Translations under genes and position numbers: made by a program
The notes under the pieces: model-generated
What the model was told of the DNA's origin: nothing
Databases searched by the model: none
What the model saw: only the letters and a program-made list of their open reading frames with translations
NCBI GenBank assembly: GCA_003165595.1
Contig: PLWQ01000012.1
Coordinates: 186,015 to 250,014, forward strand
Reading direction: 5' to 3'
DNA length: 64,000 nucleotides
From: Fibrobacterota bacterium
Lineage (GTDB): Bacteria > Fibrobacterota > Chitinivibrionia > Chitinivibrionales > FEN-1185
In this document: positions 21,088 through 64,000 of the stretch, piece after piece
Layout of the letters: the number at the start of each line of letters is the position of its first letter
Numbering within the stretch: the stretch's first letter is position 1

Positions 21088-22043
21088 TGTCCTCCCCGCA
21101 CCAGCACCACGGCGGCGGTAACAAGCAGGTTCGCAAGCGACAGCGGCAGCAGCACCTTCCACCCGAACGACATGAGCTGGTCGTAGCGCGGTCTCATCAG
21201 CGTGGCCCGGCACAACACGAAGAAACACACAAAAACAAGGGTCTTGATGCAAAACCACACCACGCCGGGCAGCCACGGCCCCAGCCAGCCGCCAAAGAAC
21301 AGGACGGTAATCAGCGACGACACCAGCACAACTCCCACATATTCTCCAACATAAAACATGCCGAACTTCATGCCCGAATACTCGGTGTGATAGCCGGCGA
21401 CAAGTTCGTTTTCTGTTTCCGGTAAATCAAGCGGTAACCGTCTGGTTTCGGCAAATCCGGCAATGAGGAAGATCACGAGACCCAGAACCTGCGGCACGCA
21501 AAACCACAGGTGCCGCTGCGCCAGCACGATTTCGCGCAAGTTAAACGACCCGGCGCACATCACCACGCCCATGAGCGATAATCCCATAAAGACTTCGTAC
21601 CCGAACATCTGGCCCGCAGCCCGCATCGCACCGAGCAGCGGATACTTGCTGTTGGAGGCCCACCCTGCCAGAACAACACTGTACACCCCCATGGCCGACA
21701 TGGCCAAAAAGAAGAGCAGGCCTACGTTGAGGTCGGCCACAACGGCGCTTGGGCCAAAGCATATAACCGCGAATGAAAGCAGCGTGGTTGTCATAATGAT
21801 CATGGGTGCAAGCACGAAAATGGGCTTGTCGGCAAACGGGGGAATCCAATCTTCTTTTGTCAATATCTTGACGACATCGGCCGCCACCTGCCCAAGGCCC
21901 AGCGGCCCCACGCGGTTGGGACCAGAGCGGTCTTGCCATACCGCAAGCAGCCTGCGCTCGCCCCATATCAGGAGCGACGCGGCGACAAGCACGCCGGCGA
22001 GCACCCCGGCAATTGTGCCCGCCATCACAAGCGTTTGATTCAT
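21084..22043 (-). CDS. nuoH: NADH-quinone oxidoreductase subunit H
   Basis: A 319-residue membrane subunit of complex I with about eight helices that forms much of the quinone chamber. It has '[19 protein letters not shown]' near the N-terminus and the acidic loop '[19 protein letters not shown]'. The start overlaps the nuoG stop as ATGA. Confidence 0.96.
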
Positions 22044-24736
22044 GGCGCGCCCGCTTTCCGTATCCACAGCCATTCGGGCAGGTCCAGGCCCTGGGTTTCT
22101 GGCCGGCCCACCGACAGTGCCGCGCTTCCCTTGGTTACCCAGGATGCTATAGCGGCGACACACGCACACGACAGGGCATAGTTGCTCACTTCCACGGCGT
22201 CGTTTTCCCTGATGGAAAGCTTTGCCGCGTCCTCGGGGTTGAGCACAATAAGGGCGGAACGCGCAAGGCTTGCCACGGACGGCGACAGCATACTGAGTTC
22301 TTCCGATCCGAAAATGTGGTGAAGGGGCATTACAAGCCATTCGGATGCGTGGGAGGCAAACGCAGCGGGCGCTTTTGCGCCGTGATTTTCGGCGGCATCC
22401 GCGCCGGCTTCCCCTTTGACAAGTGCGGCCGGCGGGTCACCGTGGTACTTAGAAACAGCCTGGACCGAATTGATTCCAGGCGCCCAGTACCTTGCGACAA
22501 GCGGCTGCTCCCGGGGCGCCTGTATTCCTTCCGGGGAAAACGCCAGCGCCGAATCCGGGTCAGCGGGATTGGGAGATTCGGCAACCGACGTGTTCGCAAG
22601 AAGAGCCGTGCGTCCGCTCGCCCGGAAACTCTGGCGCGCTATCTTTTGGCTGCCTTCCCGAAACGAGGCGCTCGGCGCTGCTGCGCGGATGCCGGCACAA
22701 TCGGCCACGCGGCTCTCCATGTCGTTCACGATGTCGTCAAGCGTTTCCCAACGAGGCGCCTCGGGGCCTACAACGGACAGAATTTCGGCAATCCAACGGT
22801 AACCCGGCGCAAAACCGGCTTGCGGCGCAATGGCGCTAAAGAAGCGCTGAAAACGTCCCTCGTTGTTGACAAACGTTCCGCTTGCCTCTGCAAACGTTGC
22901 AGCCGGGAGCACGAGATCGGCCATGGCGGCGGTGGCGGTGAGCGTGTGGTCGATGACGACGACGTTGCGCGGCAGAGTGAGCAGGGCCCCGGCGATTGCC
23001 GGATCGCAATTCCGGTACAAATCGGCCTCCAGCACGACAACGGCTTCCGCGTTGTCGCGCTCGGCTGCATCCAACGCGGCAGTCAAATCCCGCCCGCCAA
23101 GCAGCGTGCAGCCGAAGCTGTTGCACTCGGAAAGTGACATGCACAGGCACGCGTCGTGGTTTACTTTGTACAATGCCGCTGCAACGCCTGCCGCGGCCTC
23201 AACAACGCTCGCGCTTCCGCTTCCCGCGCCGGACACCACTGCCGGCCGTGCCGCTTGCGCAAGATCCCGGGCAATACCGCGCGCCATGGCTTCGATTTCG
23301 GGCGAGAGTCCCCGGGGAGCAGGTGCGCTGCCGTCAAGCGCGTGCGCTATTGCAAAGCCCAGGCGTGAAATATCGTCGGGCGGCGCATGATATACGGTGG
23401 TTGCGACATCGTCCAGTTTGGTAAGCGTCGGCGTAGCCACGACAAGCGAAGACCGCACGTTGTGTCCCGTTTCACGTATCGCAGCATCGTTCCAGGGATC
23501 AATGCCCAGACCATGGGCATTGGTCAAAGCCGCGGTACGGCAGGCCTGCCGTACCGCAAGCGCCAGCAGCGGCGCGGTATTGGTGACGTCTTCTCCCAGG
23601 ACAAGCACGGCGCCGGCCTTTGCAACGTCGCGCAGGGACGCCCTGGAGGCAGGTGTCCTGCGGAGTGCATGGACGATTTCGGTTGTTATTGAATGCTGGG
23701 TCTCGGATTCGGCCACAAAGAACCGCTGGGGACCCACCAGTTGACGCAACGCGAAATTCGATTCCAGCGATGCGCGGCCCGATCCGATGCCGATAACGGG
23801 ACGTCCGGAGGAAAACAGCTCTGCAACCCGCTTGATCGCCGCGGAGCGGTCGAGCGGTTCAAGCTTCTGGTTTCTTCCCTTTTTGGCAAGTGGCGTGCGC
23901 ACGCGACGAGAACCGTTGACGAATTCGTACCCGAACCGGCCGCGGTCGCACAGAAAATAGCCGTTGACGTCCTCGCTAAAGCGGTTGAGAATACGCCGCA
24001 GCACGCCCGACCGCTGGCCGGCAATGGTGTTGCATCCCAGGCTGCAGTGCACGCACACCGAAGGCGCTGAGCACAGGTCCCATTTGCGGGTGAAGTGCTT
24101 GCGGAATGTCTTGTCCGTAAATACGCCTGTGGGGCATACTTCAACCAGATTGCCCGCGAATTCGCTCGCAAGCACGCCGCTTTCGTGCCTGCCGAAATAT
24201 ACCGAGTCGTGCCATCCGAACACCTCAAGGTCTTTGCCGCCCGCATAATCGCGGTAAAATCGCACGCATCGGTAGCATGCGATGCACCGGTTCATCTCGT
24301 GATGCACGAACGGCCCCAGGTCCTGATTTCTGTGCGTTCGTTTTTTGAACCGGTGCTCCCGGTACGTATGTCCGGTAAGCACGGTCATGTCCTGCAAATG
24401 GCATTCGCCGCCTTCGTCGCACACCGGGCAGTCGTGCGGGTGGTTGGCCATGAGAAAACCGATCACCTCGGCGCGGAACTCATGTGCCTCCTTGTCGTCA
24501 ATTGATATGCGCATATTGTCCCGTGCCGCCGTCATGCACGACATCACGATGGTCCCGGTGCAATCGTTTTCGTCCTTAAAAAGCTTCACGGCGCATTGCC
24601 TGCACGCGCCCACCGAATCCAGGGCCGGGTGCCAGCAGAAGTGCGGAATATCGAACCCCAGCCCCAGGCACGTATGCAGCAGGTTGCGGCCTTCCTCGAA
24701 TTCGTAAGGTTTGTTATCGATGTAAAGAGTCGCCAT
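22040..24736 (-). CDS. nuoG: NADH-quinone oxidoreductase subunit G
   Basis: An 898-residue peripheral-arm subunit. The N-terminus binds N1b (2Fe-2S; Cys in '[15 protein letters not shown]'), N5 ('[14 protein letters not shown]') and N4 ('CIACYRC'). A further 'CVHCSLGCN' motif with Cys upstream may bind N7. The remainder is a molybdopterin-oxidoreductase-like fold without cofactor. The start has almost no ribosome site because the preceding 110 bases are an AT-rich repeat, so translation of this gene may be weak or use a different signal. A 26-bp palindrome lies in its coding sequence. Confidence 0.95.
23532..23557. repeat. 26-bp perfect palindrome inside nuoG
   Basis: The arms are GCGGTACGGCAGG and CCTGCCGTACCGC with no spacer, so the site is a perfect 13+13 palindrome. 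It lies near nuoG codons 394-402, in frame and without breaking the reading frame. Confidence 0.8.
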
Positions 24737-24740
24737 AAGA

Positions 24741-24847
24741 AAAATTCCAAATTACAAATTACAAATTACAAATTGCCAAACCCGTTCCGCCGGCTTAGTG
24801 CATCTTATTTATCAATTTTCAATCTGGAATTTGCAATTTGCAATTCA
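24741..24847. repeat. AT-rich imperfect inverted repeat between nuoF and nuoG
   Basis: It starts with four tandem 7-base units (CAAATTA three times, then CAAATTG; 24748-24775). It ends with the complementary style GGAATTTGCAATTTGCAATT. The middle is GC-rich. The whole forms an imperfect inverted repeat of about 105 bases resembling small AT-rich elements dispersed in some environmental genomes. It separates two genes that elsewhere in this operon overlap, so it looks inserted. Confidence 0.6.
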
Positions 24848-26128
24848 TTAATGTTTATACGGACACCGTTTTTCCGTAATGTGCCGTTCGAAATCCTCCC
24901 GAAAGTATTTGAGTGCACTTTGCAGCGGCTCTACCGCGCCCGGCGCCAGGGCGCAGAATGTGCGGCCGGGGCCCAGCAATTTACAATGAAGTTCGAGCCG
25001 GTCCAGGTCTTCCGGTCGCCCCCGGCCCTGTTCAATATCGGCCAGGATGTTTTGCGTCCAGGGCAAGCCGTCGCGGCACGGTGTGCACCAGCCGCAGGAT
25101 TCCCGCGCAAAGAACGTCACCAGATTGTGCACCATCGCAACCGGGCATGTGCGGTCGTCAAGAACAATCATTGTGCCTGTGCCCAGCCTGCTTCCGGCCT
25201 TCTGCATTGCGTCGAAATCCATGGGCACATCGAGGTGCCTGTCCGTAAGAAAATCGGTGGATGCGCCGCCCGGCAAGAAGCCGCGCAGGTTGTATCCGCT
25301 TTTCATGCCGCCTGCGTGCTTCTCAATTATCTCGCGCGGCGTTGTTCCCATCGGGAGTTCCCACAGGCCGGGAGCATTCACCCTGCCGCTTGCGCCGTAC
25401 AACTTGGTTCCGCTGTCGCCTGTTTTCGACAGCGCCTTGAACCATGCGGCGCCGTTTCGGAGAATAGGCGGAATATTGCACAAGGTTTCCACATTGTTAA
25501 CGACCGTGGGCCTTCCCAGCAACCCCACCACCTGGGGAAACGGCGGTTTGCTGCGGGGAGACGCACGCTTGCCCTCCAGGGCGTTGAGAAGTCCGGTCTC
25601 TTCGCCGCACAGGTACCTGCCGTGGCTCGTGTGCACGTGTACGCGCACGCAGAATTTTGAGCCGAGGACGTTGTCGCCGATATACCCGCGGCGCTGTGCC
25701 TCGATAATCGCTTTTGTCAGTCTTTGCGCCGCCTTCGCGTATGCCCACCGCACGAACACGTATACCGTTTGGGCCTGGATCGCGAATGCCGCGGCAAGAG
25801 CGCCCTCCAGAACAAGATGCGGGTTTTGTTCGAGCAGCAGACGGTCCTTAAACGTGCCGGGCTCCATTTCGTCGGCATTGACAACAAGGTATGCGGCTCC
25901 GGTTCTCTTCCCCGGCGGCGGCACGAAGCTCCACTTCTTCCCGGTTGGAAACCCGGCGCCTCCTCTCCCTCTGAGGTTCGAGTCGGTCACCGCGGCCGTC
26001 ACATCGAATGGCGTCATTTCGGTCACAGCCGTGCGCAGGGCCGCGTAGCCGCCCGCGTCTTCGTATTCGTCGATCGCCAGGGCCTCTTTGGTCGGTTTCA
26101 TGGCATGGGTAAGCGGCGAATCGATCAT
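24848..26128 (-). CDS. nuoF: NADH-quinone oxidoreductase subunit F
   Basis: A 426-residue subunit that oxidises NADH with FMN. It has the FMN-binding 'LRGRGGAGFPTGKKW', the NADH-site 'YLCGEETGLLNALEGKR', and the N3 4Fe-4S motif 'ESCGWCTPCRDG' near the C-terminus with the final Cys further on. The ATG overlaps the nuoE stop as ATGA, so the in-frame upstream extension is not used. Confidence 0.96.
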   Translation of the reverse strand: MIDSPLTHAMKPTKEALAIDEYEDAGGYAALRTAVTEMTPFDVTAAVTDSNLRGRGGAGFPTGKKWSFVPPPGKRTGAAYLVVNADEMEPGTFKDRLLLEQNPHLVLEGALAAAFAIQAQTVYVFVRWAYAKAAQRLTKAIIEAQRRGYIGDNVLGSKFCVRVHVHTSHGRYLCGEETGLLNALEGKRASPRSKPPFPQVVGLLGRPTVVNNVETLCNIPPILRNGAAWFKALSKTGDSGTKLYGASGRVNAPGLWELPMGTTPREIIEKHAGGMKSGYNLRGFLPGGASTDFLTDRHLDVPMDFDAMQKAGSRLGTGTMIVLDDRTCPVAMVHNLVTFFARESCGWCTPCRDGLPWTQNILADIEQGRGRPEDLDRLELHCKLLGPGRTFCALAPGAVEPLQSALKYFREDFERHITEKRCPYKH

Positions 26129-26652
26129 TGTTCTTTGCGCCCCGTTGCCAAGGGAGATTGTGCCGTGCGTCGATCGCCGTCCTTTATCCTGTATTGGTCG
26201 ATGATTGTGTCGATGCTTTGCCGCGTGAGGTCGCCAAAGAGTTCCCGATCGACCATCATGGCGGGCGCATGGTCGCAGGCGCCGAGGCACGCGGATGGAA
26301 GGAGCGTAAACATACCGTCTTTCGTAGTTTCACCAAAACCGGAAATTCCCAGTTTTGTCAATAGATGGTTGAGCAAGTATTCGTAGTCCATGATCCAGCA
26401 ACTCACGCTGTCGCACAGCAGAATAACGTGCCTGCCCACGGGCGAGCGATAGATGCGGTTGTAAAACGTGGCAATGGAATCGAGTTCGGCCGGCGTCATG
26501 TGAAGGAACTCCGCAATGTCGCTCAGGCTTTCGTCGGAAATCCATCCTCTGCTCGCCTGGACCGCTCCAAGCGCGTGCGGCGCGGCCGCCCGCGCGGACG
26601 GGCTGGAATCACATCCCTCGCTGATCGCGGCCCGTTCTTCTTGTGTCAACAT
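26125..26652 (-). CDS. nuoE: NADH-quinone oxidoreductase subunit E
   Basis: A 175-residue thioredoxin-like 2Fe-2S (N1a) subunit. The four ligands are in CDSVSC and, about 35 residues later, CLGAC. It pairs with NuoF. AAAAGGGGGCC precedes the ATG, 12 bases after nuoCD. Confidence 0.95.
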   Translation of the reverse strand: MLTQEERAAISEGCDSSPSARAAAPHALGAVQASRGWISDESLSDIAEFLHMTPAELDSIATFYNRIYRSPVGRHVILLCDSVSCWIMDYEYLLNHLLTKLGISGFGETTKDGMFTLLPSACLGACDHAPAMMVDRELFGDLTRQSIDTIIDQYRIKDGDRRTAQSPLATGRKEQ

Positions 26653-54201: not shown

Positions 54202-55326
54202 TCACGCGAGCGTGCTCTGCGCGCGTTTGATGTCATCTATGATCCCCAGGTCCTGCGGGCATGCCGCTTCGCATTTGCCGCAGCCGTCGCATCGCAGCGC
54301 CGCTTGCGCAAGGCCCATTGCGCGGAATTCCGAGGCAGCCATCTGCGGCAGGCGTTCACTGTCGTGATAATACCTGATGCATCGCATAATGTCCGACGTC
54401 GCGATTCCCGCCGGACATTCCTGCTCGCATCGTCCGCACATGGCGCAGCCGTGATAAGCAGCTGTTTCATACCCGTTCATGATGCGGTGCAGCAGACCGG
54501 TTTTTGCCGAAACCGCGGCCGCGGACCATGCCTTGAGATCGTCAAGCGAGCCCACCCCTTTGATGATCGTGCTCACGGTTTTATCGGCCAGGACCTTCGG
54601 GATGTGGGCTACGTAATCATCCGCGTTCAACTCCCCCTTCGATTTCATTGCAAGAATCGAAATGTTCTTCTGGCGCAATTTGTCGCGCTGGGCGGCGAGT
54701 TCCTCCACCTGCTTTGGCGGATAAGCGGGCATGACGCAGGTGAAAAAACCTGCGTCGGCCGCCACGTCAAGCACAGCCGCGGTGTCCTTGTGGACCGTGA
54801 GGCCTGCGAATTTGACAAGCCCCTTGCCGCGCCATGCGATGAATTTCTCCTTGATCGAGGGCAACTCCTTCTTGAGGTCGCCGGCATTGTGCCGGTTGAA
54901 CATAAGGAAGTCAATGGAGGTCACGCCGAGCACCTTCAGCGCCTCTTCGATGGAGGGGAAATCGTCTTTGAGCGCGATGTAAATCTTGTCGGTTTTCCCA
55001 CTGATGGCCTTGCCCACCATGTCAAGGGATTGACCGTTCATGTAATGAAAAGACGTGTGGATAAAATTCACCCCCATACCGATGGCCGCGGAAAGAACAT
55101 CGACCTTGATGTTGCCGGCGCCAAGAGAGAACACCGAGGCGGCAATTCCTGTGGTTCCGATGGTCCGATATGCCATTGTGGGCTTGTAATTGCGGATTTT
55201 TTCCGTTGCCGGGTCGGATGCTGGTTTTGTTTCCGCAGCTTTAATGGAAATGCCCGAGATACCCGCGGCAATACCGGCTGCGCCGACCTGCTTGACGAAT
55301 GACCGGCGGGAAACGGTGTTTTTCAT
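54202..55326 (-). CDS. Tat-exported aldo/keto reductase with two 4Fe-4S clusters
   Basis: A 374-residue protein. The N-terminus carries a Tat signal (SRRSFVK followed by a hydrophobic stretch). Residues about 50-300 form an aldo/keto reductase barrel with the Tyr in 'HYMNGQS' and the Lys in 'IYIALKDD', but the first tetrad Asp is His in 'FIHTSFHY'. The C-terminus has CAMCGRCEQECP and CDGCGKCEAACP, each with a fourth Cys, a bacterial-type 2x4Fe-4S ferredoxin. Family members are annotated as oxidoreductases of unknown substrate; an electron-transfer role in the periplasm is likely. It faces away from the 55.9-64 kb redox cluster. Confidence 0.85.
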   Translation of the reverse strand: MKNTVSRRSFVKQVGAAGIAAGISGISIKAAETKPASDPATEKIRNYKPTMAYRTIGTTGIAASVFSLGAGNIKVDVLSAAIGMGVNFIHTSFHYMNGQSLDMVGKAISGKTDKIYIALKDDFPSIEEALKVLGVTSIDFLMFNRHNAGDLKKELPSIKEKFIAWRGKGLVKFAGLTVHKDTAAVLDVAADAGFFTCVMPAYPPKQVEELAAQRDKLRQKNISILAMKSKGELNADDYVAHIPKVLADKTVSTIIKGVGSLDDLKAWSAAAVSAKTGLLHRIMNGYETAAYHGCAMCGRCEQECPAGIATSDIMRCIRYYHDSERLPQMAASEFRAMGLAQAALRCDGCGKCEAACPQDLGIIDDIKRAQSTLA

Positions 55327-55900: not shown

Positions 55901-56494
55901 ATGCGGCAAGTAACAATGGTAACGTTGCTGGTAGGCATCTTTGTATTGATAATGCAGTGCAGCGAAAATGAATCCCTCAATAGCTTTAATGGGAGAATGG
56001 AAACAGTCTCCGCCCCTCTCACCAAGGCGTACTCTTTCGCGCCGTATACCTACAATTTGAGCATGGATTCGATCAGATGGGCAAACGAATTCCCGGCCGG
56101 AGGACCCAGCCGCGTGAGCGTCATTTTAGGCGGGCAGATCCAAACTGATAGCGCGGATGCCACGGGAAACCCAGTTCCTATAGGGATCGGGCAAAACCAC
56201 CTTGATTTGGCAGTCGAGACACATACCGACAGCGCAACGGGTATCGTGCACCTTGCCTTCGACAGCTCCGGCCAATTCCTTGACACTTTACTCATTGCCG
56301 CCTCTCCGCTATCCGGGTTGATACTCGCTCGGAGCAGCCGGCTCTTTGTGAAGATGGTAAATATCACGCCTGATCCGGATACTCTACAGCACACCTTTGA
56401 TACCACGCAGATCGTATTTGATACCATACAGTTAGTCAATCCCCATTTTGATACCACGCAGGTAGCCGATCCCCATACTTTAGAGGGGCAATGA
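55901..56494 (+). CDS. lipoprotein with a repetitive acidic tail
   Basis: A 197-residue protein with a short signal and lipobox 'LIMQC' at 19, anchoring it to a membrane. The mature domain (about 30-150) is beta-rich and unrecognised. The last 40 residues repeat a unit like 'HFDTTQ'/'FDTTQIV', three imperfect copies rich in Asp, Thr and His. This could bind metal or lie on the surface. GGAGG four bases ahead marks the start. It is the first gene of the plus-strand redox cluster. Confidence 0.6.
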   Translation: MRQVTMVTLLVGIFVLIMQCSENESLNSFNGRMETVSAPLTKAYSFAPYTYNLSMDSIRWANEFPAGGPSRVSVILGGQIQTDSADATGNPVPIGIGQNHLDLAVETHTDSATGIVHLAFDSSGQFLDTLLIAASPLSGLILARSSRLFVKMVNITPDPDTLQHTFDTTQIVFDTIQLVNPHFDTTQVADPHTLEGQ

Positions 56495-58989: not shown

Positions 58990-59916
58990 ATGAGGGTGAC
59001 GATCAAACGCTTTTTACTCTTAATACTTCCTTTTATTCTCATAAATGGAAATTATGCGTACGGCCAGTTTAAGGCAAAGAATGTTTTTATTGTCGTCGGA
59101 GACCAATTCCGGCATGATGAATCCTTCGGTAGCCCGACCCATGCCTTAATCCCTCATCTTTGGAACGACATGGTTCCCAATGCCAGTCGCTGTGTTACCT
59201 TTTATGGGAATCCTTCCTACATGGCCCTGGTTCATCTAGCCATAATCACCGGTTCCTGGAAAGATCTCCGGCGTTCAAACCAGGATGACATTCCGGAACA
59301 ACCTACCATGTTTGAGTACTTCCGTAAAGGCCTCGGGAAGGATAAAAAATCATGCTATTTCATCACCAGTAAGCCGGAACTTAATTTCCTGACGTACAGC
59401 AATAGTGAAGATTATGGCGAAAATTTTGGCGCCACCGCTGAGTTTACAAAAGAAAAAAACAATGATGAAGAGCTCTATACCAAACTCACCGCTTACATGA
59501 AAACGAGCCATCCCCAGCTTGTCTTTGTCATTCTGGGGGGCGCAAAGAGCTTTAATAAGAAGCAGGTACCGGAAGATATGGTCCGCTATCGGAAACAGCT
59601 CAAGGAGATGGATGATCACCTATACAGAATCTGGATGGCTGTCCAGGCGGATCCCGTATACAAGGATAAAACGGATTTCTTCTTTCTCAATGACCATGGC
59701 GATATTCTCTTACAGCAGGATTGTGATGACGAATGTAAGAGGTACCTGGTTATAGTGGCCTTAGGTCCTGATATCAAGAAGAATTATTCGACGGAAAACA
59801 AATGGAGACAGATTAATATCTGCCCGACGGTGGGCAAGATTCTCGGTTTCCCCACCCCGCGGGTGGATAAGGATGCAACAATGATAGATGATTTCTTTCT
59901 GAACGGCGGTAAATAA
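58990..59916 (+). CDS. exported alkaline phosphatase/sulfatase-superfamily protein
   Basis: A 308-residue protein with a signal peptide (MRVTIKRFLLLILPF onward to about residue 25). It has the superfamily's metal-site segments: Asp in 'IVVGDQFRHD', a possible nucleophile region 'GNPSYMALVHLAIITGSW', and the distal 'FFFLNDHGDILL'. The usual Cys/Ser-x-Pro-x-Arg sulfatase signature is not present, so it is a divergent family member, possibly a phosphoesterase, or not catalytic. It is AT-rich and lies between the barrel gene and a membrane iron-sulfur gene. Confidence 0.6.
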   Translation: MRVTIKRFLLLILPFILINGNYAYGQFKAKNVFIVVGDQFRHDESFGSPTHALIPHLWNDMVPNASRCVTFYGNPSYMALVHLAIITGSWKDLRRSNQDDIPEQPTMFEYFRKGLGKDKKSCYFITSKPELNFLTYSNSEDYGENFGATAEFTKEKNNDEELYTKLTAYMKTSHPQLVFVILGGAKSFNKKQVPEDMVRYRKQLKEMDDHLYRIWMAVQADPVYKDKTDFFFLNDHGDILLQQDCDDECKRYLVIVALGPDIKKNYSTENKWRQINICPTVGKILGFPTPRVDKDATMIDDFFLNGGK

Positions 59917-59917
59917 T

Positions 59918-60904
59918 ATGCTGAAAATAACAAGGTTGAAATTGGGTGTCCAAATAGTCTTTTTCCTCCTCATTGTATACCTTGGCTATGCAGGGGTACG
60001 ACTGATCGAGTGGAAGAATATTTCCCTCGTGCTTCCTACGTTAAGCTGTTACTATACGAATCACCGGATAGCCCAATGTTTTATACGTTCCTTGCAGGAG
60101 GGACTTTCCGCCGGTTGGAAGGTTGGGTATAGTACCCTGCTCGTACCCGTAATACTGCTTGTGATTTTCGGTTTGATTTTTGGGCGCGCATGGTGCTCAT
60201 GGGTCTGCCCGCTGGGATTCGTACAGGATTTATCCATCCGTATTCGAAAACTTCTAAAGATAGGCTATTACAACTTATCGGATAATTTGAAACAGGTATC
60301 GGTATTGGTTAGATGGATCTTTGTGATTGCCATTCTATTCATCGCCATGGGCATTGGTATTCCCCATTTCTTCTTAAAGGAGTACCAATACGATCTCATT
60401 ACCCCTTTTTGTCAAATCTGCCCGAGCAAACAAATCTTCCCCTTTGTTGAAGGAAGATTCAAGGAAATGTTCACGGTGGATACTATCAGTACCTTGTCCG
60501 CCGTAATGTCCTACCTGGCAATTGGCGTTTTTGTTTTTTATCTGCTCACCACTTCTTTTATCCGGAGGATGTGGTGCAGGCTGTGCCCGATGGGTGCCAT
60601 TCTCGGATTATTTAACAGGTTTTCATTTCTTTCATTGCGTAAGGAAGGAAAACGCTGTACCAAATGCGGCGTTTGCCAGAGGAGCTGCCCCGTGCAGGTC
60701 ACGGAGGTGTACGAAGAAAAAAAGAAAGAGAAGATAGCTTCATCTGATTGCACTTTATGTTTCCGCTGTGTGGAAATGTGCCCGGAGAAAGACGCATTAA
60801 AAGTCGGCCTCTTCAAATTTCCGATCGCGCGGTCAAAATACAAAAGGTTTTTACAATCGAGTGCGGTGAAAGTAACTAAATTGCAAAAGGAGAATTCCCG
60901 GTGA
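59918..60904 (+). CDS. NapH-like membrane 4Fe-4S protein
   Basis: A 328-residue membrane protein of the NapH/NosR/CcoG-type polyferredoxin class with about five helices. Cys motifs are 'CSWVCPLG', 'CRLCPMG', and two ferredoxin motifs 'CTKCGVCQRSCP' and 'CTLCFRCVEMCP' in the soluble C-terminal domain. A further 'CQICPSK' lies in a loop. Such proteins pass electrons from quinol or another membrane pool to soluble partners. The stop overlaps the next start as GTGA, tying it to the HgdB-like protein, for which it may be the electron donor. The start directly follows the phosphatase-like gene with a poor ribosome site. Confidence 0.8.
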   Translation: MLKITRLKLGVQIVFFLLIVYLGYAGVRLIEWKNISLVLPTLSCYYTNHRIAQCFIRSLQEGLSAGWKVGYSTLLVPVILLVIFGLIFGRAWCSWVCPLGFVQDLSIRIRKLLKIGYYNLSDNLKQVSVLVRWIFVIAILFIAMGIGIPHFFLKEYQYDLITPFCQICPSKQIFPFVEGRFKEMFTVDTISTLSAVMSYLAIGVFVFYLLTTSFIRRMWCRLCPMGAILGLFNRFSFLSLRKEGKRCTKCGVCQRSCPVQVTEVYEEKKKEKIASSDCTLCFRCVEMCPEKDALKVGLFKFPIARSKYKRFLQSSAVKVTKLQKENSR

Positions 60905-62238
60905 AAACCAACAATGATCCAAAATATCTTCCAACGCTTGACCCTGCGGAAAAGGATGAACTGCAAAAGGCATTCAAGGCCGGCGTTCAAAAGACCGTCG
61001 CCGAAAACATCGAGAAGATGAAACAGGTTCCCAATCGTCCCAAAGCCATGGAATATTTCGACCAGGTGGCCGATTTTTTCGGTCAAAGGGAAAAAGAGAT
61101 CCGTGAATTTAAAGCGCAGGGGGGAAAGGTAATCGGCTTTGCCTGCATGTTAGCGCCCGTTGAACTTATACTGGCCGCAGGCGCCATTCCTGTTCGTATT
61201 GATTCAGGGTTCTATACGCCGAGCAAGATCGGGGATAGAATTGTTCCGGTGGAGGTCTGCCCAGTCGTCAGGTCCATGATCGGCCTGGCAATGGCCAATC
61301 TCTATCCTTATCTTGAAATGTGCGATGTTATCATCTCTCCCAATACGTGCGATGGGAAAACAAAGGTGTGCGAGATTTTGACCGATGCGTTTCCCGTGTG
61401 GGAGATGAATGTACCCAGAATAAAGGACACCCCGCAGGCAAAGAGTTATTGGCTTGAACAGGTAAAAGAGATAAAGGGAAAGATTGAAAAGCTCACGGGC
61501 AGGTCAATAACCGGCAAAGCAATGCGTACTGCAATAGAAACGACCCTTAAGGCCACAGCAGCATCCCGTCGGTTGCTGGATTTACGGAAAGGCTCTCCTC
61601 TCATTTCCGGAAGGGATGCCATGCTGGTGGATCAGATGAGCTACTTTGACGATCTCAAGAGATGGACGGATAAAACCAACCTGCTCTGTGATGAGCTTGA
61701 AAGGAAAGCGGTTGATAAGTCATATGTTGCTGCAGAAGATACACCGAGGATTTTACTGACCGGTTCTCCAATGATATGGCCGGATTGCTGGAAAATCCCC
61801 AATCTGATTGAAGAATCAAAACCGCAGGGCTTGATTGTTGCGGATGAATTCTGCTCCGGCGACCGGATATACTACGACCCTGTAGGGGTTGATGAAGGGT
61901 CGGCCGGTGATATGCTGAAGGCCATAGCAGAACGATATATTATGCCGTGCACCTGCCCTTGCTTCACCTCGGAAGACGGGAACCAGGACAGGATCGACAA
62001 GTTGCTAACACTTGTAAAGGACTACAAGATCAGCGGCGTGATCTATCATGTGATACGTGGTTGTCATCTGTATGCCATGGAATATATGCGCCTGAAGCGT
62101 CTGTTCGAAAAAGAGAAAATTCCGATATACTACCTTGATACGGAATACAGTCGCGAGGACAGCGGACAAATGAAAACAAGAATCGAAGCCTTTCTTGAGA
62201 TGTTGGCGACAAAGACCCAAACCGATGATCTGTATTAA
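60901..62238 (+). CDS. HgdB/BcrB/DCCP-family ATP-dependent reductase component
   Basis: A 445-residue protein of the 2-hydroxyacyl-CoA dehydratase / benzoyl-CoA reductase / double-cubane-cluster-protein family. The family's N-terminal fold 'GKVIGFACMLAPVELILAAGA' is present (split here by Cys82). Cys82, Cys120, Cys150 and a cluster at 350/352/354, plus Cys318 and Cys388, are candidates for iron-sulfur ligands. Classical dehydratases need two different subunits, but only one is encoded here, as in double-cubane cluster proteins, which act as homodimers. The start is GTG overlapping the upstream stop. The substrate is unknown. Confidence 0.8.
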   Translation: MKTNNDPKYLPTLDPAEKDELQKAFKAGVQKTVAENIEKMKQVPNRPKAMEYFDQVADFFGQREKEIREFKAQGGKVIGFACMLAPVELILAAGAIPVRIDSGFYTPSKIGDRIVPVEVCPVVRSMIGLAMANLYPYLEMCDVIISPNTCDGKTKVCEILTDAFPVWEMNVPRIKDTPQAKSYWLEQVKEIKGKIEKLTGRSITGKAMRTAIETTLKATAASRRLLDLRKGSPLISGRDAMLVDQMSYFDDLKRWTDKTNLLCDELERKAVDKSYVAAEDTPRILLTGSPMIWPDCWKIPNLIEESKPQGLIVADEFCSGDRIYYDPVGVDEGSAGDMLKAIAERYIMPCTCPCFTSEDGNQDRIDKLLTLVKDYKISGVIYHVIRGCHLYAMEYMRLKRLFEKEKIPIYYLDTEYSREDSGQMKTRIEAFLEMLATKTQTDDLY

Positions 62239-63978: not shown

Positions 63979-64000
63979 AGAACGGAAGCGAAGTTTACAT

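Follow-up and report, generated by a model that had tools for sequence, protein, structure and literature searches.

A Double-cubane Cluster-type Protein Encoded with a Fused Benzoyl-CoA Reductase Activation Module in a Fibrobacterota Operon

RESULTS

The window analyzed here is a 64,000-nucleotide stretch of contig PLWQ01000012.1 (contig C37) from a Fibrobacterota bacterium with a genome of 5.39 Mb (98% complete). It contains a gene for a protein of the double-cubane cluster protein (DCCP) type followed directly by a gene for a fused BzdP-BzdQ (PQ) activator of the kind that serves bzd-type benzoyl-CoA reductase (BCR). Among about 695 genomes searched, a sample of three phyla rather than of the whole tree of life, the PQ fusion is present only in this genome and in one other (G031), which belongs to the same genus, and the pairing of a DCCP with a BCR ATP module was seen in no other. 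We consider it likely that the DCCP-type protein is a homodimeric, ATP-dependent low-potential reductase that has been switched to the BCR activation module. The features of the operon are collected in Table 1.

TABLE 1. Features of the DCCP operon (positions count from the first nucleotide of the window; those above 64,000 lie past its end)
Feature	Position	Strand	Evidence
Putative small lipoprotein, first gene of conserved block	55901..56494	+	43% ortholog, same place in G031
Putative outer-membrane beta-barrel, about 780 aa	56618..58954	+	Signal peptide, terminal Phe, all-beta model
Secreted alkaline-phosphatase/sulfatase-like protein	58990..59916	+	27% to downstream AlkP2
NapH-like membrane polyferredoxin, 328 aa	59918..60904	+	PF12801 Fer4_5 and Fer4 domains
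DCCP-type catalytic subunit, PF06050	60901..62238	+	phmmer against PDB, Pfam, fold, tree
Six predicted [8Fe-9S] ligand codons	61144..62064	+	Alignment with BzdN and DCCP
Starts of ligand codons	C82 61144, C120 61258, C150 61348, C318 61852, C352 61954, C388 62062	+
C-terminal tag DDLY, BzdN/BzdV type	62224..62235	+	Tag counts in BzdN, BzdV and DCCPs
Fused BzdP-BzdQ-type ATPase/activator, 572 aa	62260..63978	+	Tree of both halves, EYWRW linker peptide
bzd-type ferredoxin	63999..64283 (63999..64000 inside window)	+	Read from genome
HoxU/NuoG-like + GIY-YIG protein (BzdV-like), ends ISDLY	64268..65371	+	Read from genome
BNR protein	ends 66854	+	Read from genome
300-aa protein	66773..67675	+	Read from genome
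AlkP2, sulfatase-like	67753..68745	+	Read from genome

Identification of the Catalytic Subunit

The DCCP gene encodes 445 amino acids from a GTG start at the first position of the frame. The start is preceded by an AAGGAG ribosome-binding site and overlaps the stop codon of the upstream NapH-like gene by 4 bp. A full-length ortholog with 84% identity is present in G031. Identity between the two genes at codon positions 1, 2, and 3 is 88, 94, and 53%, respectively, indicating purifying selection, and the open reading frame is genuine. A whole-genome search with PF06050 returned this gene as its single match. No second PF06050 subunit was found anywhere in the 98% complete genome or past the window end, where the operon goes on with other gene types (a ferredoxin, a BzdV-like Fe-S protein, and then exported proteins). 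The first-pass annotation had described a single Cys-rich HgdB-like protein, a description that is borne out, and had named a partner gene just past the window end as a finding that would speak against it.

A phmmer search of the PDB gave DCCP (7YYL/6ENO) as the best match with an E value of 1.4e-81, followed by BzdN (1.7e-29), MbdN, and HadC. The score against PF06050 was 327 bits. The AlphaFold2 model (pLDDT 85.7) matched the DCCP structures 6ENO and 7YZM with TM scores of 0.86-0.92 and BzdN with scores of 0.73/0.86. The protein scored 338.4 bits, and its G031 ortholog 348.7 bits, with the NCBIfam double_cubane model NF040772 (cut-off 350, which both narrowly miss), and the protein reached 110 bits with the BzdN model TIGR03190 (cut-off 453.8). 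In a tree with BzdN as outgroup, 28 other DCCPs clustered together at 94/93, and the two orthologs lay next to them on a long branch. The tree and the two model scores rule out a BzdN altered by divergence.

The protein thus belongs on the DCCP side, an assignment supported by sequence, fold, tree, and the six ligand Cys residues described below; it is the tree and the fold that place it there, not the number of Cys residues. The double-cubane type had been proposed at first pass, together with a tree and a superposition as ways to check it; the tree and the fold match agree with the proposal. Identity to Carboxydothermus hydrogenoformans DCCP is only 35%, and a scan of a collection of genome contigs with the single sequence found no closer relative. 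The deep branching outside the sampled DCCPs suggests that the protein may have left DCCP function.

Cluster Ligands and Neighboring Residues

The protein contains Cys residues at positions 82, 120, 141, 150, 157, 263, 296, 318, 350, 352, 354, and 388. The positions listed in the first-pass annotation are correct, but 141, 157, 263, and 296 were missing from it. The ligands of the [8Fe-9S] cluster were taken from the BzdN structure, where they are Cys36/73/100/263/293/327 (PMC11971306). All six align with Cys residues of the window protein (C82, C120, C150, C318, C352, and C388, in that order), as was anticipated for a double-cubane protein, and the same positions are C76/114/144/309/341/374 in DCCP. 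They are the only invariant Cys residues in an alignment of 47 sequences; C350 and C354 lie on either side of the ligand C352. A Cys set larger than a single [4Fe-4S] cluster needs had been read as fitting a DCCP. Although the DCCP assignment holds, the six-Cys set is not diagnostic of it because BzdN of benzoyl-CoA reductase bears the same double-cubane cluster (PMC11971306).

Among the residues close to the cluster, R99 occupies the position of BzdN Arg53, which touches the distal sub-cluster (PMC11971306); 43/43 DCCPs have Gly here. S289 corresponds in the alignment to BzdN Ser239, and Y391 remains DCCP-like. R99 may tie the window protein to the bzd module, but it was noticed after looking and is a lead to test.

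The Activator Is a BzdP-BzdQ Fusion

The gene that follows the DCCP gene encodes two ASKHA halves. In a tree with BzdP and BzdQ from bzd operons of the same order, the N-terminal half grouped with BzdP and the C-terminal half with BzdQ (both at 100/100), apart from all sampled DCCP reductase (DCCP-R) proteins. The linker retains the BzdQ N-terminal peptide EYWRW at residue 281, which identifies the activator as a fusion of the two genes, and all four cluster Cys residues are kept (125, 164, 427, and 467). Open frames long enough to suggest further P-Q fusions (genomes G476 and G389) turned out, when read, to hold P and Q as distinct genes.

A joint P and Q tree placed the fusion inside the bzd radiation, beside a Desulfobacterota clade at 90/99, although this grouping is weak. 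The nesting suggests that the module was recruited and is not a relict, and it makes an ancestral DCCP/BCR intermediate less likely. An origin from the phylum's own bzd operons is unsupported, the fusion joining, if weakly, the Desulfobacterota clade. Two such operons of the same order (L039 and L040, in genomes G021 and G022) encode complete bzd benzoyl-CoA reductases together with beta-oxidation genes; a literature search pairing Chitinivibrionales with benzoyl-CoA found no paper. Among Desulfobacterota, loci L198, L205, L204, and L225 carry BzdP-BzdQ without BzdN or BzdO nearby, most with an adjacent ferredoxin gene. These orphan modules might work with a DCCP of their own, but no PF06050 protein checked in the genomes concerned has the C-terminal tag described below.

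Electron-input Genes

The ferredoxin and BzdV-like genes match those that follow BzdQ in bzd operons of the same order, so that the order P-Q-ferredoxin-V is that of genuine bzd operons, authenticated by TIGR03191 and TIGR03192 scores above cut-off. In these systems BzdM is a ferredoxin and BzdV a putative NADPH:ferredoxin oxidoreductase (PMC5658619). The BzdV-like protein of the operon has 367 residues as against 840 for BzdV; the Fe-S N terminus and a C-terminal GIY-YIG-like domain are kept, and the pyridine-nucleotide flavoprotein part is gone. The loss of the NADPH domain and the gain of a NapH-like protein suggest a different electron source. The short, flavin-less V form also occurs at one Desulfobacterota locus (L223:3886-8209). 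The bzd operon there contains P, Q, and ferredoxin genes but only a remnant of bzdO. The first-pass annotation had the family of the catalytic subunit right but overlooked the BCR-type activator and the electron-input genes.

A Shared C-terminal Tag

The DCCP and BzdV-like proteins end in TDDLY and ISDLY, respectively, and their G031 orthologs in TDDLY and IADLY. The motif [DE]L[FY]-COOH terminates 17/18 BzdN and 19/19 complete BzdV proteins from bzd operons of three phyla (loci L039, L040, L207-L222, and L224; PDB 8s02 chain B ends likewise). The one untagged BzdN, at L220, has no BzdV nearby. The tag was found in none of 84 other DCCPs, against a background of about 2 in 1000 open reading frames, and it is also missing from the HgdB-like proteins encoded in genomes that have orphan PQ modules. 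The biochemically studied BzdN that was crystallized (8s02 chain B) ends in EELF at residue 379, whereas the chain compared by Foldseek comprises 375 residues, which may mean that the tag is disordered in the structure. A limited, non-systematic literature search found no published description of the BzdN/BzdV tag. The counts are strong, but the tag was noticed after looking and is likewise a lead to test. The D-L-Y tags probably dock the DCCP and the BzdV-derived protein on the same partner.

Envelope Neighbors and Operon Conservation

Eleven genes (lipoprotein, barrel, sulfatase-like, NapH-like, DCCP, PQ fusion, ferredoxin, HoxU-GIY, BNR, 300-residue, and sulfatase-like proteins) are kept in this order as a whole block in G031, that is, in two species of one genus. 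The beta-barrel assignment is a weak one, the model being all-beta with about 26 strands at low confidence (pLDDT 43). AlkP2 matches PF00884 at 5e-4, below the family cut-off. As judged by eye, the sulfatase-like proteins seem to lack catalytic residues, and the upstream one is apparently a pseudo-enzyme. Homologs of the barrel were found within the phylum, and the neighborhoods of barrel and sulfatase-like homologs gave no lead on the function of the operon. Divergent from the operon lies a gene (54202-55326, minus strand) whose product has a Tat signal, 4Fe-4S motifs, and a weak resemblance to aldo/keto reductases; it was not seen at the same place in G031.

DISCUSSION

In the mechanism that we propose, each DCCP-type subunit would hold one [8Fe-9S] double cubane, bound by the six aligned Cys residues, and the PQ fusion would energize the protein in place of the usual homodimeric DCCP reductase. 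PQ, a single chain, is predicted to be a pseudo-dimer that has two ATP sites and a single [4Fe-4S] cluster between its domains. Electrons, most likely entering through the NapH-like membrane protein, would pass to the ferredoxin and the BzdV-derived, HoxU-like Fe-S protein and from there to PQ; ATP hydrolysis would then push them on to the double cubane, where the substrate would be reduced. The reductase would be cytoplasmic and linked through its operon to envelope proteins. The DCCP-type subunit is probably a homodimer, and its pairing with the asymmetric activator is structurally a proposal. No genes of a substrate pathway indicate which reaction it would catalyze. The protein family, the ligand match, the gene fusion, the identity of the module, the tag, and the conservation of the operon are computational results, from which the presence of the cluster, the homodimer, the path of the electrons, and the role of the tag are inferred.

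Three other readings have to be weighed. The protein might be an ordinary DCCP served by a generic activator, as in the Carboxydothermus enzyme, with its BzdPQ-type neighbors incidental. Its fold and ligands are those of a DCCP, and the genome does encode other tandem ASKHA proteins, on contigs C6 and C18. Those two are large types, however, with open frames of 1077 and 1458 residues, and no stand-alone, single-domain activator of the DCCP-R type was found in the genome. Elsewhere such an activator is the rule: of 80 other DCCP loci, the majority carry a DCCP-R of about 250 residues nearby and none the PQ type, while at about 16, some of them on short contigs, no activator was detected. The C-terminal tag and R99 also connect the protein to the bzd module, and we regard an ordinary DCCP as unlikely. 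Less probable still is a homodimeric benzoyl-CoA reductase or dehydratase in which the DCCP-like subunit takes the place of BzdN as well as BzdO and has an aryl- or acyl-CoA as its substrate, as the complete bzd-type activation module, the BzdN-type tag, and the BzdN-like residues R99 and S289 might suggest. In BCR the CoA substrate is located at the 3-Cys [4Fe-4S]-OH2 cluster of BzdO (PMC11971306), whereas here all six double-cubane ligands are kept, the genome has no BzdO gene, and the operon has no ligase, hydratase, or dehydrogenase gene of an aryl-CoA pathway.

The double cubane could instead store ATP-energized electrons and relay them, for example via the NapH-like protein, to an acceptor in the envelope. 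The double cubane of BzdN is thought to be a cofactor for electron transfer or storage (PMC11971306). The NapH-like and exported proteins of the operon would suit such a relay, but the operon encodes neither a cytochrome nor any other redox protein that is exported. Moreover, we know of no precedent for the export of electrons of very low potential. We judge a relay to be about as improbable as an ordinary DCCP and favor the reductase switched to the BCR activation module.

DCCPs are nitrogenase-like iron-sulfur reductases, characterized by their use of ATP to reduce small molecules, acetylene among them. The system resembles C. hydrogenoformans DCCP and DCCP-R (6ENO, 7YYL) in the fold, the ligands, Tyr391, the N-terminal PNRP..M.YF region, and a single catalytic gene beside an ASKHA ATPase. 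It differs in the fused activator, where that organism has the single-domain DCCP-R, in the added ferredoxin and BzdV-like genes, and in the DDLY tag, Arg99, and Ser289 of its divergent catalytic subunit. With the bzd-type class I system (BzdNOPQ, BzdM, BzdV) it shares the sequences and order of the P-Q-ferredoxin-V genes, BzdN-type cluster ligands, the Arg53 equivalent, and the tag; unlike that system it has neither BzdO nor BzdN proper, its P and Q are fused, its V protein is without the flavoprotein domain, and no aromatic pathway genes are nearby. The 2-hydroxyacyl-CoA dehydratases HadBC and HgdAB share the superfamily fold and an ASKHA activator but are heterodimers with [4Fe-4S]/[4Fe-5S] clusters, and HadC is only 21% identical to the window protein.

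The combination of a DCCP with a BCR activation module suggests an exchangeability of catalytic and ATP-driven modules, and the shared tag offers a simple rule, open to testing, that would tell which parts belong together. More tentatively, the operon could represent a third architecture of ATP-dependent radical reductases, combining a double-cubane homodimer, a single-chain BzdPQ, coupling to the envelope, electron input from a NapH-like protein rather than NADPH, an imported substrate, and a choice of partner set by the tag.

Other redox genes were seen in the same genome. The window carries nuoE, nuoF, and nuoG of the respiratory complex I type (22040-26652, minus strand). A locus on contig C18 (L167:1-7113) combines genes for exported proteins with genes for a NapH-like Fer4_5 protein and two DUF362 proteins and is perhaps a parallel envelope redox system.
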